From NCBI RefSeq assembly GCF_004765795.1, contig NZ_SBIV01000002.1:62001-126000 (forward strand): a stretch of DNA of 64,000 nt, read 5' to 3'. Positions within the stretch are counted from its first letter, which is position 1; the number at the start of each line of letters is the position of its first letter. Positions 44,454-48,970 of this stretch are shown here, piece by piece. Position numbers and translations under genes: made by a program. Under the pieces are notes generated by a model, which did not search any database, was not told where the DNA came from, and was given only the letters and a program-made list of their open reading frames with translations. Source of the DNA: Halorussus marinus. Its GTDB lineage: Archaea; Halobacteriota; Halobacteria; Halobacteriales; Haladaptataceae.

Positions 44454-45596
44454 CTACTCGGCCAGTTCCTCGTCGAGGGTCGTCCCGGTGACGTACGACG
44501 AGAGCTGGACGCCGACCAGACTCACCACGACGCCGGCGACGACGAACACCGCGAGTCGGGTGCCCGGCGGGACCTGCATGCTCTCGATCACGAGGTTGCC
44601 GACTTCGATCCGGGGGACGACGATGGGCGCGACCAGCCCCGCGGGCTGGAGGAAGTACGCCGAGAACCCCCGGACGACCAGCCCGACCGCGAGCACGCCG
44701 AACGGGAGGTTGAGGTAGGCGTTTCGGACCCGGTCGTTACGGATGGCCTCGTCGAGCAGTCGGCCGGTCGAGGCCGCCATCGCGGCGCTCGCGAGCCACG
44801 GCACGCTCGCGAACGCGAACGCCATCGCGGGCATCAACACCCCCTCGTTCGAGATCGTCATATCCGAGACCCGGAGCGCGCCGGCGAACACCCCGACCAG
44901 CGACAGCCCCGCGGCGACGACGTAGGTGACGATCGAGACCCGCCCGGAGTAAAGGGCGTCCCGGACCTCCGCGGGGAGGTCTGCCACGTAGTCGTCGACG
45001 CCGAGCCCCTTGTAGAGGACGAAAAGCCCCATCACGGCGGTGATAGTCGAGACCGCGATCGCCTGCCCGAACCCCATCAGCAGGATGGGAAACGCGATCA
45101 GCGCGACCCCGACCGGGACCAGCACGGTCTGGCGGAGCTCCTCGTCGGCGAGAAACTGCTTGAGCAGGTAGTAGGTGGACTCGATGTCCCTGGCCTGCCG
45201 GACGACCACCCGGTCGACCGCGTCGACCTGCACCCGGCTCTCGATGATCGGGACCAGCCGCTCGTCTTGGGCGCTGTCGATGACGACGATCGCCGAGTCG
45301 GGGTCGTACTCCGCGATGAGGTCGTCGGTCTGGGCCGCGACCGCGCGGTCGCGACCCACCATGGTGTCGGCCGCCCCCGAGATGACCGCGACGGTGACCT
45401 CCTCGTCGCCGTCCCTGAGATCGCGGGCGACCCGGAGCGATTCGAGCAAGCAGTTGACGCCGGCGTCCTCGGGGTCCGCGATCCCGACCTCGGTGACCAG
45501 CGACCGGACCGCCTCCCATCCGACGACCGGGGTTTCCAGCCCGGTCTTGGCACCGATGTCGTCGTCGCGGTCGACACAGACCACCAGCGTGCTCAT
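44454..45596 (-). CDS. DUF373 family membrane protein
   Basis: A 380-residue protein with a soluble N-terminal domain (residues ~1-150: TLVVCVDRDDDIGAKTGLETP, GDEEVTVAVISGAADTMVG) and a C-terminal membrane part with about seven to eight helices. This is the archaeal DUF373 pattern. The function is unknown; the N-terminal domain looks nucleotide-binding. A TATA-like element (CTTTTTATCC on the minus strand, ~45622-45631) lies just upstream and survives only ~35 bp from the boundary repeat of the adjacent island. Confidence 0.87.
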   Translation of the reverse strand: MSTLVVCVDRDDDIGAKTGLETPVVGWEAVRSLVTEVGIADPEDAGVNCLLESLRVARDLRDGDEEVTVAVISGAADTMVGRDRAVAAQTDDLIAEYDPDSAIVVIDSAQDERLVPIIESRVQVDAVDRVVVRQARDIESTYYLLKQFLADEELRQTVLVPVGVALIAFPILLMGFGQAIAVSTITAVMGLFVLYKGLGVDDYVADLPAEVRDALYSGRVSIVTYVVAAGLSLVGVFAGALRVSDMTISNEGVLMPAMAFAFASVPWLASAAMAASTGRLLDEAIRNDRVRNAYLNLPFGVLAVGLVVRGFSAYFLQPAGLVAPIVVPRIEVGNLVIESMQVPPGTRLAVFVVAGVVVSLVGVQLSSYVTGTTLDEELAE

Positions 45597-45667
45597 GTCG
45601 TTCGACTGGGCCCAGACGCGCGAGGGATAAAAAGGCTCGCGTCGGGGCGGCCGACTCCGCGATCAGT

Positions 45668-45696
45668 CGGCGTCGGCGGGATCGACGACCTCGCCG
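45668..45696. repeat. left copy of 29 bp direct repeat flanking the restriction-modification island
   Basis: This 29 bp segment is identical to 48151-48179, in the same orientation. Read on the minus strand it encodes GEVVDPADA, the C-terminal end of the nth product, and here is followed by an Asp codon and a stop (TGA at 45663-45665). It therefore represents the displaced original end of nth, left behind on the far side of the island. Confidence 0.9.
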
Positions 45697-45706
45697 AGTC
45701 GACCGA

Positions 45707-46573
45707 TCAGAGAGTCGTCTGATTCCGAACCGCCGAGAGCGCTTCGTCGTCTTTGTATCGTGAGTACGGATTTAGCTCGGGATCGAGATACACGCAGTCG
45801 AACCCCCAGAGCGCGTCGGCCGAGAACGTCGCCGTCTTGCCCGAGTCGCCCTCGGTATCGCTCTTGTTGAACTGGTCGGGGTCCATCTCGCCCATTCGGA
45901 CTTCCCAGATCCACGCGGTGTCTTTCCGCGTTCCTCGCTCGTAGTTTCGGTCTCGATCCGCCAGAACGTACCGAAGCGTGACGTACAGGCCCGGTTTCGG
46001 GAGGTGTCCTTTCGGCATGTTGTTCTCCATCGCGACTTTGATCTCGATCCCCGGAACGCCACTCCGAGCGCCGGTGCTGATCAGATCGGGGAAATTCCCC
46101 GCGTTCACTTCGTAGAGCCCCTCAGACGCCTCGGCGACACCGGAGGCGAAAAACTCCCCGATCACGGTCGAGAGCGCAGAGTACTCGTCGAACTGTTCGG
46201 CGAGCGGTTCGACACCCCGCCGTTCGAACGCGAAGTCGATCGTATCCAGGTTCTCGTACGCTCTCTCGATCCCCATCAGAATCGCCGAGTTGTCGAAGGG
46301 AACGTCGTCGTAGATATCTGCGTCCTCGATCACGTACTCTTCTTTCGGTGTTCTGAACGATTCGGGGTTCACCAGTTCGGTGATGGTGACGTCTAATGCG
46401 TCTGCGATCCGCATCACGATCGAAATACCGGGCTCTCGTTCGCCCCGTTCGATCTTCCCGAGCGTGGTTCGGTGTATGTCAGCGGTCTCGGCGATCTCTT
46501 CGAGGGAGTTCCCGTGTAGCTCGCGGAGTTCCTTGATTCGCCGACCGAGATCCGATCTGAACTCGTCGCTCAT
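45707..46573 (-). CDS. XRE-HTH protein with PD-(D/E)XK-like motif; putative type II restriction enzyme with built-in controller
   Basis: A 288-residue protein. Residues ~7-65 form an XRE helix-turn-helix (LGRRIKELRELHGNSLEEIA, TADIHRTTLGKIERGEREPG) like C-proteins of restriction systems. The remaining ~220 residues match no family I recognise but contain Pro162-Asp163, then Glu177-Ile-Lys179 (GIEIKVAMENN), the spacing of a PD-(D/E)XK nuclease site. The neighbour, divergently transcribed 220 bp away, is a C5-methyltransferase, so a cognate restriction role is likely. The ATG at 46573 lies ~27 nt after a TATA-like ATTATGTTTAAC (minus strand). It ends 10 bp from the left direct repeat. Weaker points: the nuclease motif is short and no target site can be predicted. 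Confidence 0.72.
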   Translation of the reverse strand: MSDEFRSDLGRRIKELRELHGNSLEEIAETADIHRTTLGKIERGEREPGISIVMRIADALDVTITELVNPESFRTPKEEYVIEDADIYDDVPFDNSAILMGIERAYENLDTIDFAFERRGVEPLAEQFDEYSALSTVIGEFFASGVAEASEGLYEVNAGNFPDLISTGARSGVPGIEIKVAMENNMPKGHLPKPGLYVTLRYVLADRDRNYERGTRKDTAWIWEVRMGEMDPDQFNKSDTEGDSGKTATFSADALWGFDCVYLDPELNPYSRYKDDEALSAVRNQTTL

Positions 46574-46598: not shown

Positions 46599-46626
46599 GT
46601 TAAACATAATTGAGACAATTGTCTCA
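46599..46626 (-). promoter_or_regulatory. promoter and 16 bp palindromic operator of the HTH-nuclease gene
   Basis: TGAGACAATTGTCTCA (46611-46626) is a perfect palindrome immediately upstream of the minus-strand TATA-like element (46599-46610). The position suits autoregulation by the XRE domain of the adjacent protein. Related half-sites, GAGACG at 46749-46754 and CGTCTCA at 46778-46784, occur just before the methyltransferase start, so one protein could control both genes. Confidence 0.6.
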
Positions 46627-46727
46627 TCGTTGGCGATCGATTAACTCTGCGCCGATCTGACAACGGTTCGATCGAATTCGAGGCTCCTACGAAGGGTATT
46701 AAGGCGGTGCGAAGATAGCTACGGATA

Positions 46728-46790
46728 ATGCATCGCCCCAGTCAGACCGAGACGGCCGTAACTGGCGACGAAGCGATCGTCTCACCGTAA
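46728..46790 (+). CDS. possible 20-codon leader ORF upstream of the methyltransferase
   Basis: ATG 46728 opens a 20-residue frame (MHRPSQTETAVTGDEAIVSP) ending in TAA 3 nt before the methyltransferase ATG, in the same reading frame. TATA-like GGTATTAAGG (~46695-46704) lies ~27 nt before this ATG, so a leaderless message would start here. It could be an upstream peptide that lowers or times methyltransferase translation, or chance. Confidence 0.3.
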   Translation: MHRPSQTETAVTGDEAIVSP

Positions 46791-46793
46791 TCT

Positions 46794-48053
46794 ATGGTAG
46801 GTGTCATCGACCTGTTCTGTGGCACGGGCGGCTTCACGTACGGCTTCGAGACCCACCCCTCCGACCAGTTCGAAGTCCTGTTGGGACTCGATAAAAAGGA
46901 CGTCGCCGCCGAGACGTTCGAACGAAACCATCCGGACGCGGAGGTCGTGAACGCGGACATTCGAGAGTGGCCCCCCGAGAAAACGGCCCGACAGACGGAC
47001 GTCACTCCCGACGACGTCGACGTGATCGTGGGCGGTCCGCCCTGTCAAGGCTTCTCTTCGATTCGTCCGGACCGCGGCGACGACGTTCTGGACGAACGGA
47101 ACGGGCTGTACTCCGACTTCATAGAGTACGTCGCCTACTACGAGCCCGACTTCTTCGTGATGGAGAACGTGGTCGGACTGGCCACCCACGAAGACGGCGA
47201 GACGATCGGCCAGATTTTGGACGATACGCGACACATCGGGTACACCGCCGACTGGCGGATCCTGAACGCCGCCAATTTCGGCCTGCCACAGCGCCGAGAG
47301 CGACTGATTATGATCGGTGCGGCCGACGAGCGGGAGATCGAATTCCCGGATCCGACACACGAGGCGGACGGTCGAACGATCGGGTACCGGGACAAGTCGA
47401 AGGTCGTGACGACACAGCCCACGCTGGACAGTTTCCGGGACGCCAAAGCCCTCCGAGAGGCGAGAACGATAGTCGACGCCATCGGCGATCTCCCGGAACT
47501 GGAGGCCGGAGAACGCGCAGTCGAGTACACACAGCCGCCACAAAACCGCTATCAGGCGTCGCTACGCGACGGATCGGCGGAGCTCACGCTACACGAGGCG
47601 ACCGATCACGGGGAGAAGATGCTGACGATAATCAGACACAGCGGCCCGAACAAGCAGACGACCATCGAGAATCTGGAGCGGTCGCCGGAAGTGGACGACG
47701 TCGACGACTACATCACTACGGGGTACAGTTCGAGCTACTCCCGCCTCGACCCGGACCTCCCCTCGGTGACGATGACGGTCAACTTCATCCATCCCGCCTC
47801 CAACAAGTGCATCCATCCGACCCAAGACAGAGCGCTCACGCCGCGGGAGGGTGCTCGGATACAGAGTTTCCCCGACAGCTTCGAGTTCGTCGGAAACCGG
47901 AGCGACGTCGTAGAGCAGATAGGAAACGCCGTCCCGCCACTACTCGGGCGCGTGCTGGCAGAACACGTCGTCGGGATGTACGACGAGTCGTATCGGGCTG
48001 ATTACGCCGCGTGTGTCATCGATGACGGACCCGAGCGCACGGCCGAAATCTAA
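46794..48053 (+). CDS. DNA (cytosine-5) methyltransferase
   Basis: A 419-residue C5-methyltransferase with all main motifs in order: I VIDLFCGTGGF (residues 4-14), IV GGPPCQGFS with catalytic Cys84, VI FFVMENVVGL (Glu124), VIII QRRER (166-170), and near the C-terminus motif IX/X with RIQSFP and IGNAVPP. A ~200-residue variable region between VIII and IX holds the target-recognition domain. It protects host DNA from the partner nuclease. It is divergent from the HTH-nuclease gene and lies inside the direct-repeat-bounded island. A short frame ends 3 nt before its ATG. Confidence 0.95.
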   Translation: MVGVIDLFCGTGGFTYGFETHPSDQFEVLLGLDKKDVAAETFERNHPDAEVVNADIREWPPEKTARQTDVTPDDVDVIVGGPPCQGFSSIRPDRGDDVLDERNGLYSDFIEYVAYYEPDFFVMENVVGLATHEDGETIGQILDDTRHIGYTADWRILNAANFGLPQRRERLIMIGAADEREIEFPDPTHEADGRTIGYRDKSKVVTTQPTLDSFRDAKALREARTIVDAIGDLPELEAGERAVEYTQPPQNRYQASLRDGSAELTLHEATDHGEKMLTIIRHSGPNKQTTIENLERSPEVDDVDDYITTGYSSSYSRLDPDLPSVTMTVNFIHPASNKCIHPTQDRALTPREGARIQSFPDSFEFVGNRSDVVEQIGNAVPPLLGRVLAEHVVGMYDESYRADYAACVIDDGPERTAEI

Positions 48054-48136: not shown

Positions 48137-48970
48137 CTACTCGTTTGTGACGGCGTCGGCGGGATCGACGACCTCGCCGGTCGCGGGTTCGACGCCCACC
48201 CGATCGCAGAGGTCGGACAGCGGACACGCCTCGGGACCGTCGAGACACGCCGGTTTGCGGGCGGTACAGTGCTCGCGGCCGAACTGAATCGTCGCGGTGT
48301 GGCCGAAGCCGCACTTCTCGGCGGGCACCTCGCGTTCTAGGACCGCCCGGACGGTCTCGTGATCGGCGTCGGGCGCCGCGACCCCGAGCCGCCGGTAGAT
48401 GCGATGGACGTGGGTGTCGACGGGGAACACGCCCGACTGCCCGCCCGCGAACAGCAACACGCAGTCGGCGGTCTTCGGTCCGACGCCGTTCAGATCGAGG
48501 AGCGCCGACCGGACCTCGCCGGGATCGCCCTCCCGGACGAACTCGTCGAAGGCGGCCGCGCTCCCGTGGTCGTCGAGGACGCGGTCGGCGACGGTCGTGA
48601 TGACGTCGGTCTTCTGGTTGTAGAGGCCCGCCGGTCGGATAGTGTCGGCGAGTTCGTCGGGATCGGCGCCCGCGAGCGCGACCGCGAGGTCGGTGTCGTC
48701 GGACCCGTCCGCGCCCCCGGTGGCGTACCGCTCCATCAGCGCGTCGTGGGCCGGCTGGCTCGCCTTGTCGCTGGTGTTTTGACTCAGGATCGTCCGGACC
48801 AGACACTCGAAGGCCGGCCGACCGCCGTAGGTCTTCGTCCAGTACAACCGGCCGAGTTCGTCGACGACCGCCTCGGCGCGGGTGTCGGGGTCGCCGTCCC
48901 GGAAGCTCGCGAACGAGCTCCCCGCGGGGTCGCCGCCGCTGATGTTCTCGGCGGGTTCGGGATCGTCCAT
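48137..48970 (-). CDS. nth: endonuclease III with altered C-terminus
   Basis: A 277-residue DNA glycosylase/AP lyase for oxidised pyrimidines. The HhH-GPD core is intact: Lys166 in LNGVGPKTADC and Asp185 in FPVDTHVHRI are the catalytic pair. The [4Fe-4S] ligands are Cys235, 242, 249 and 255, spaced C-x6-C-x6-C-x5-C rather than the bacterial C-x6-C-x2-C-x5-C. A 25-residue polar N-terminal extension precedes the fold. The last residues VTNE are supplied by the inserted restriction island, which duplicated the GEVVDPADA codons. Confidence 0.94.
   Translation of the reverse strand: MDDPEPAENISGGDPAGSSFASFRDGDPDTRAEAVVDELGRLYWTKTYGGRPAFECLVRTILSQNTSDKASQPAHDALMERYATGGADGSDDTDLAVALAGADPDELADTIRPAGLYNQKTDVITTVADRVLDDHGSAAAFDEFVREGDPGEVRSALLDLNGVGPKTADCVLLFAGGQSGVFPVDTHVHRIYRRLGVAAPDADHETVRAVLEREVPAEKCGFGHTATIQFGREHCTARKPACLDGPEACPLSDLCDRVGVEPATGEVVDPADAVTNE
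48151..48179. repeat. right copy of the 29 bp direct repeat, within the nth 3' end
   Basis: Identical in all 29 positions to 45668-45696. It encodes residues 265-273 of the nth product on the minus strand. Flanking bases differ immediately on both sides, so the repeat boundary is sharp. Confidence 0.9.

Follow-up and report, generated by a model that had tools for sequence, protein, structure and literature searches.

Classical controller (C) proteins of restriction-modification systems use paired DNA sites to balance activation and repression. The C-box of C.PvuII-like proteins has the sequence GACT-tat-AGTC (PMC4824078), and in 2013 a fusion of a C protein to a restriction endonuclease (C-REase), CR.NsoJS138I, was described as active both as a nuclease and as an activator (Liang and Blumenthal, PMC3850674); a 2025 review still cites this work as the C-REase example (PMC12707154). 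CR.NsoJS138I and the PvuII-orthologue fusions carry an N-terminal C-protein helix-turn-helix (HTH) on a PD-(D/E)XK enzyme, with the operator between the genes, and fusions of the CR.NsoJS138I type are usually encoded divergently from the methyltransferase gene. In a literature search by title or abstract we found no archaeal C-REase fusion, which is weak evidence of absence.

Here we analyze a locus of the haloarchaeon Halorussus marinus, located in a 64,000-nt stretch of DNA (assembly GCF_004765795.1, contig NZ_SBIV01000002.1, positions 62,001 to 126,000; hereafter the window). Base composition, acidic proteins and gene neighbors also point to a haloarchaeal host. We consider it probable that this locus is a mobile two-gene Type II restriction-modification cassette, whose predicted nuclease would turn on its own gene and turn off that of the methyltransferase.

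A controller domain and a nuclease domain in one polypeptide

The controller-restriction endonuclease fusion (C-R fusion) is encoded by an open reading frame that occupies exactly 45707..46573 on the minus strand, from ATG to stop, and yields a product of 288 aa. An initial annotation of the window had placed an XRE controller-type HTH at residues ~7-65 and a PD-x13-EIK motif at residues 162-179, and had proposed that controller and nuclease form one polypeptide; all three proposals are borne out by the open reading frame, the domain matches and the structural model. The HTH spans residues 9-69 (46367..46549, minus strand), with Pfam HTH_3 covering residues 13-67 (1.7e-15), the PADLOC Control_protein model matching at 3.3e-11, and C.BclI being the nearest PDB sequence (1.4e-7). 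A PDB fold search with the full-length model returned C.AhdI as the top match of this domain (Z 14.8, 0.7 A over 66 residues), and the Pfam, PADLOC, PDB sequence and fold evidence together place it in the C-protein group of XRE-type domains, its fold being common to C.AhdI, C.BclI and C.Esp1396I. While these three are separate small proteins, the window HTH is fused to the nuclease, with no stand-alone small controller. Residues R35, T36 and R46 are the positions studied in C.Esp1396I mutants (PMC4824078, PMC3758141), and all operator-bearing members of the family alignment keep both arginines.

The nuclease domain covers residues 74-288 (45710..46354, minus strand). The full-length AlphaFold2 model has a mean confidence of 88.5; since its fold search filled up with HTH matches, we modeled residues 71-288 separately (pLDDT 87.4, pTM 0.87) and ran a blind fold search of this model against the PDB. 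NaeI was the top match (Z 9.6, second NaeI 8.5; 3.5 A over 148 residues), and was followed by SwaI (6.8), SfiI (6.4), NhoI (6.3), DpnI and BglI (6.2), HincII (5.9) and EcoRV (5.8), with NlaIV and a distant PvuII (4.8) also among the matches, where scores below 8, that is all besides NaeI (6.8 and under), are to be read as middling. Other than NaeI, almost all of the top 50 matches are PD-(D/E)XK restriction enzymes, an outcome that the initial annotation had named as support, for a model of residues 75-288. As modeled, the C-terminal domain has a PD-(D/E)XK core fold; judged by strand positions only, D163 opens strand 164-166 and E177 and K179 lie within strand 176-182, as expected for such a core, so that the (P)D...(D/E)xK catalytic residues are predicted to sit on adjacent core strands.

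NaeI, through its Endo domain, is thus the closest fold for the window nuclease, at an identity of 7-8%, and its target site need not equal that of the fusion. NaeI carries a second DNA-binding domain at its C-terminus, whereas the extra DNA-binding domain of the fusion is the N-terminal XRE HTH. Searching a nuclease-domain profile against the PDB revealed no sequence-level relationship to the NaeI family, leaving a similarity of fold only, and returned no PDB chain at E<=10, though PvuII is in the PDB. The earlier statement that the C-terminus matches no family stands for Pfam and NCBIfam, neither of which holds a family for it, and has to be amended for PADLOC, in which the uncharacterised REase_II model PDLC03564 weakly matches 12/22 members (best 1.5e-4).

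The catalytic motif, P162-D163-x13-E177-I178-K179 (46037..46090, minus strand), has 13 residues between D and E, as claimed, and in an alignment of 26 family sequences P162, D163 and K179 never vary, while 25/26 keep E177. The P, D, E and K are also all retained in haloarchaeal relatives at only 18-20% identity, and conservation across this range argues that the motif is no chance match. The exception is L013, in which G replaces E177; together with the truncated copies L026 and L027, this loss indicates that not every copy in the family is likely to be active. Dead PD-(D/E)XK domains exist in general, and the L013 substitution would suit a scheme in which the fusion is a nuclease-dead transcription factor serving an otherwise solitary methyltransferase, its C-terminus being a degenerate sensor or dimerisation domain. 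We regard this as very unlikely, given that D163 and K179 occur in every member and E177 in all but one, and that the motif is also kept in HTH-free relatives, where a regulatory role would be lost.

Pairing with a C5-cytosine methyltransferase

Divergent from the nuclease gene, at a distance of 220 nt, lies the gene of a 419-aa C5-cytosine DNA methyltransferase (46794-48053, plus strand; PF00145 at 1.4e-65), which contains the catalytic motif GGPPCQGFSS and is 49% identical to the methyltransferase of a Psychrobacter plasmid. A C5-methyltransferase gene adjoins the nuclease gene in all evaluable loci (28/28, excluding L021, where a contig edge interrupts the locus), such that a separate endonuclease gene sits beside a methyltransferase gene as in Type II systems; the co-occurrence that the initial annotation had put forward as a check is thus observed throughout. 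The window's genome holds one other C5-methyltransferase match (G000:C12:6640-8049), made up of two matched parts in one 561-aa frame.

This pairing bears on the possibility that the fusion is a methyl-directed (Type IV/IIM-like) nuclease, which would cut modified DNA and be restrained together with the neighboring methyltransferase. Among the fold matches, NhoI and DpnI do cut methylated DNA; yet a nuclease needing its neighbor's modification would be lethal, the pairing is universal, and NaeI, the top match, belongs to the classical Type II enzymes, making such an activity extremely unlikely. We infer instead a Type II nuclease with a target site common to the methyltransferase.

The plasmid search yielded one near full-length homologue (37% identity), encoded divergently from a cytosine methyltransferase on pA15BP4, the 10-kb mobilizable Psychrobacter plasmid. 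Conserved nuclease peptides, used to scan bacterial and archaeal genomes, identified 25 further loci, with hosts in Bacillus, Pseudomonas, Pandoraea, Rhodoferax, Acidimicrobiia, Verrucomicrobiales, Deinococcales, Acidobacteria and others; L051 and L056 came to light in a subsequent whole-genome profile search, and one scan of viral contigs found no relative. Within the window's own genus the fusion gene is present in only 1/18 genomes, and among 391 sampled genomes of its class there is one other close copy, L051, which is 75% identical in both proteins. L026 and L027, where the two genes are truncated toward each other, are apparently decayed remnants of the cassette.

Four relatives (L022, L023, L024 and L025) have convergent genes. 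In L022, L023 and L025 the nuclease has no HTH and the methyltransferase carries an N-terminal HTH-like extension, and only L022 has a free 70-aa C-like protein (L022:1189-1401) just upstream of the nuclease gene, these small HTHs being assigned by eye; in L024 a fused HTH is present and R35 and R46 are lost. In a tree of the nuclease domain the convergent HTH-free clade nests inside the fused ones with support of 80/86, suggesting that the fusion may be ancestral and the HTH later lost, a reading that is tentative because this support is moderate, the outgroup distant and L024 long-branched.

The 391 genomes also include three haloarchaea with distant HTH-free relatives of the nuclease, in a common three-gene order (L052:1984-4074, L053:3348-5463 and L054:1357-3442). 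These endonucleases match the family profile at E 4e-12 to 2e-8 and have the PDL...ExK motif in common with it; they differ in having no HTH, and in being partnered by an N6/N4-type methyltransferase and a separate small winged-helix-like protein. PDLC03564 matches these HTH-free haloarchaeal endonucleases, distant kin of the window nuclease, at about 2e-10.

A putative symmetric operator that accompanies the controller domain

The window genes are separated by a 16-bp perfect palindrome, TGAGACAATTGTCTCA (46611-46626), comprising a putative operator, GAGACAATTGTCTC (46612..46625, unstranded), and its flanks, with the operator centre 45.5 nt from the nuclease ATG. The 14-bp core has one exact copy in the 3.76-Mb genome and one other site at one mismatch. 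Across the family the 14-bp palindrome reads GAGACTATAGTCTC, or GAGACAATTGTCTC in haloarchaea, and a GAGACTATAGTCTC-type site was detected with <=3 mismatches in 20/20 of the divergent loci first tested, compared with 0.06 expected from shuffles. The later loci agree, L051 having two operator copies and L056 an exact match, for a total of 22/22 divergent C-R loci with a sequence-predicted, C-box-like palindrome (core GACT..AGTC) upstream of the fusion's own gene.

The core GACT..AGTC is alike in the C-box of C.PvuII-like proteins, while the window operator is symmetric with a 2-bp spacer: PvuII-orthologue fusions use paired C-boxes (GACT-tat-AGTC), whereas the window family has one symmetric operator. 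Its single copy in the bacterial loci, where we saw no second, lower-affinity repression site, also sets the fusion family apart from C.AhdI, C.BclI and C.Esp1396I. The haloarchaeal L051 has a second perfect operator (L051:3324-3337) 9 nt upstream of the methyltransferase start codon, and at the same place in the window, just ahead of the methyltransferase ATG, lies a degenerate second site with 4 mismatches (46770..46783, unstranded).

By the same mismatch scan the operator is absent from the four convergent pairs. Since in these operator-free loci the HTH is missing from the nuclease or is without R35 and R46, the palindrome tracks the HTH rather than the nuclease, the methyltransferase or their cutting specificity, and the fusion would bind it as a dimer. 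As a recognition site of the enzymes themselves the palindrome is disfavored, for the same endonuclease/methyltransferase pairs without such an HTH have no palindrome.

Promoter geometry and the direction of regulation

At 23-25 nt past the operator on the nuclease side, most bacterial loci have a -10-like hexamer (mean best mismatch 1.95, versus 2.64 +/- 0.16 in shuffled sequence), and the operator centre falls near -43 relative to the expected nuclease-gene start, with no consensus -35 there. The methyltransferase strand of the operator holds TATAGT, preceded 17-18 nt earlier by an exact TTGACA in L002, L003 and L019, and the bacterial operator often overlaps the methyltransferase -10 box. 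L056 shows both features again: TAGAAT follows the operator at 24 nt, and the methyltransferase promoter reads TTGACA-17-TATAGT.

The window has a TATA-like box for each gene, whose promoter role is predicted. That of the nuclease gene, TTTAAC (46599..46604, minus strand), has its centre ~28 nt from the ATG, as would suit a leaderless transcript, and its TTTAA is conserved in L051; the operator lies upstream of it. That of the methyltransferase transcript, TATTAA (46697..46702, plus strand), lies in GAAGnnTATTAAG, likewise conserved in L051. A 20-codon ORF (MHRPSQTETAVTGDEAIVSP*; 46728-46790) begins at the expected leaderless start of the methyltransferase transcript, ~28 nt past TATTAA, and ends 3 nt ahead of the methyltransferase ATG. 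The equivalent position in L051 also holds an ATG, whose ORF ends 5 nt inside the methyltransferase gene; these small upstream ORFs suggest translational coupling with the methyltransferase.

Activators bound near -42, together with the behavior of C proteins, provide an established basis for inferring activation from such a layout. On this basis, operator geometry points to a fusion that would activate the nuclease gene and repress the methyltransferase gene. A protein bound at -43 may act as a repressor as well, transcription from the haloarchaeal promoter relies on other machinery, and activation is here read from position only, so that the same cassette could have a simple repressor as its HTH, with the fusion shutting its own promoter and perhaps that of the methyltransferase, and thereby capping the nuclease. 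XRE proteins are often repressors, the single bacterial operator between two promoters would block both if bound, and one site with no second, weaker companion may simply repress. Against this, the operator keeps a constant distance upstream of the nuclease -10, where no consensus -35 occurs, the usual place of an activator, in the window it is upstream of the TATA box, and the characterised fusion CR.NsoJS138I activates, by 23-fold (PMC3850674). We therefore judge pure repression, the reading of the initial annotation in which the protein would cap its own expression, to be rather unlikely, and favor activation of the nuclease gene combined with repression of the methyltransferase gene.

Traces of a probable insertion at the nth 3' end

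The cassette is flanked by a perfect 29-bp direct repeat. The left copy (45668..45696, unstranded) keeps what is apparently the ancestral 3' end of nth (GEVVDPADAD*), the gene of endonuclease III, and the right copy (48151..48179, unstranded) lies within the present nth 3' end, which reads GEVVDPADAVTNE*. Most of the same-genus Nth proteins examined end in DPADAD or similar, as in the left copy. Insertion of restriction-modification genes with target duplication is a described mode (PMC3031569), and the arrangement fits a two-gene cassette that inserted into the end of nth and duplicated 29 bp. We found no clean empty site in same-genus genomes, in which the gap between nth and the DUF373 gene holds other small genes; because this gap is variable in the relatives, the support for insertion comes from the nth 3' end only.

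The window further contains a gap (45597-45667) between nth and the gene of a conserved 380-aa membrane protein (44454-45596), and in this gap, across the window and L029-L045, different small genes are found, species by species. The nth-side gap of the genus is a possible insertion hotspot.

Discussion

We propose the following course of events for the cassette. On entry into a cell, the methyltransferase would be made first, from a constitutive promoter. A few fusion molecules would then dimerise through the HTH and bind the single palindromic operator between the genes, and the bound fusion would activate the nuclease promoter, from ~-43 in bacteria and from ~-45, just upstream of TATA/BRE, in the haloarchaeon. 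The bound fusion would also lower methyltransferase expression, as in several bacteria the methyltransferase -10 box lies within the operator; in L051 the second operator, just before the methyltransferase start codon, would serve this reduction. The C-terminal domain would then cut unmethylated target sites.

More broadly, the fusion nuclease may activate its own promoter from ~-43 to -45 in both sigma70 and TBP/TFB systems through nearly the same palindrome, and the HTH may have passed from nuclease to methyltransferase as the genes became convergent, making the regulator an exchangeable module within a single nuclease/methyltransferase pair; we hold this as conceivable and somewhat doubtful.

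A controller-restriction enzyme fusion, for which the initial annotation had considered a new restriction subtype, is not new as a principle, given CR.NsoJS138I (PMC3850674). The window family would work in the manner of the PvuII-orthologue fusions, but its nuclease has no detectable sequence relationship to PvuII, and is thus not assigned as an R.PvuII orthologue; compared with the CR.NsoJS138I type, the family reaches haloarchaea, and some relatives have no fused HTH and a methyltransferase that carries one. What is new is best filed as an unrelated nuclease, a single symmetric operator, a range from bacteria to archaea, and an HTH on either the nuclease or the methyltransferase.

The distant haloarchaeal relatives may bear on a separate matter. 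In most Halobacteria the CTAG methylase is regarded as an orphan (PMC6471742); if the methyltransferase of L052-L054 is the CTAG methylase, the adjoining nuclease would be its restriction partner.

In the literature searched, C-REase fusions have been characterised only for PvuII orthologues; the family described here arrives at this solution with an unrelated nuclease, in haloarchaea as well as several bacterial phyla, and with one operator common to both promoters. Such a two-gene switch, in which one protein would both cut DNA and time protection versus attack, is simple enough for direct test, also in an archaeon, and the relatives in which the HTH is off the nuclease and on the methyltransferase offer a natural series on how regulators may move in restriction-modification systems.
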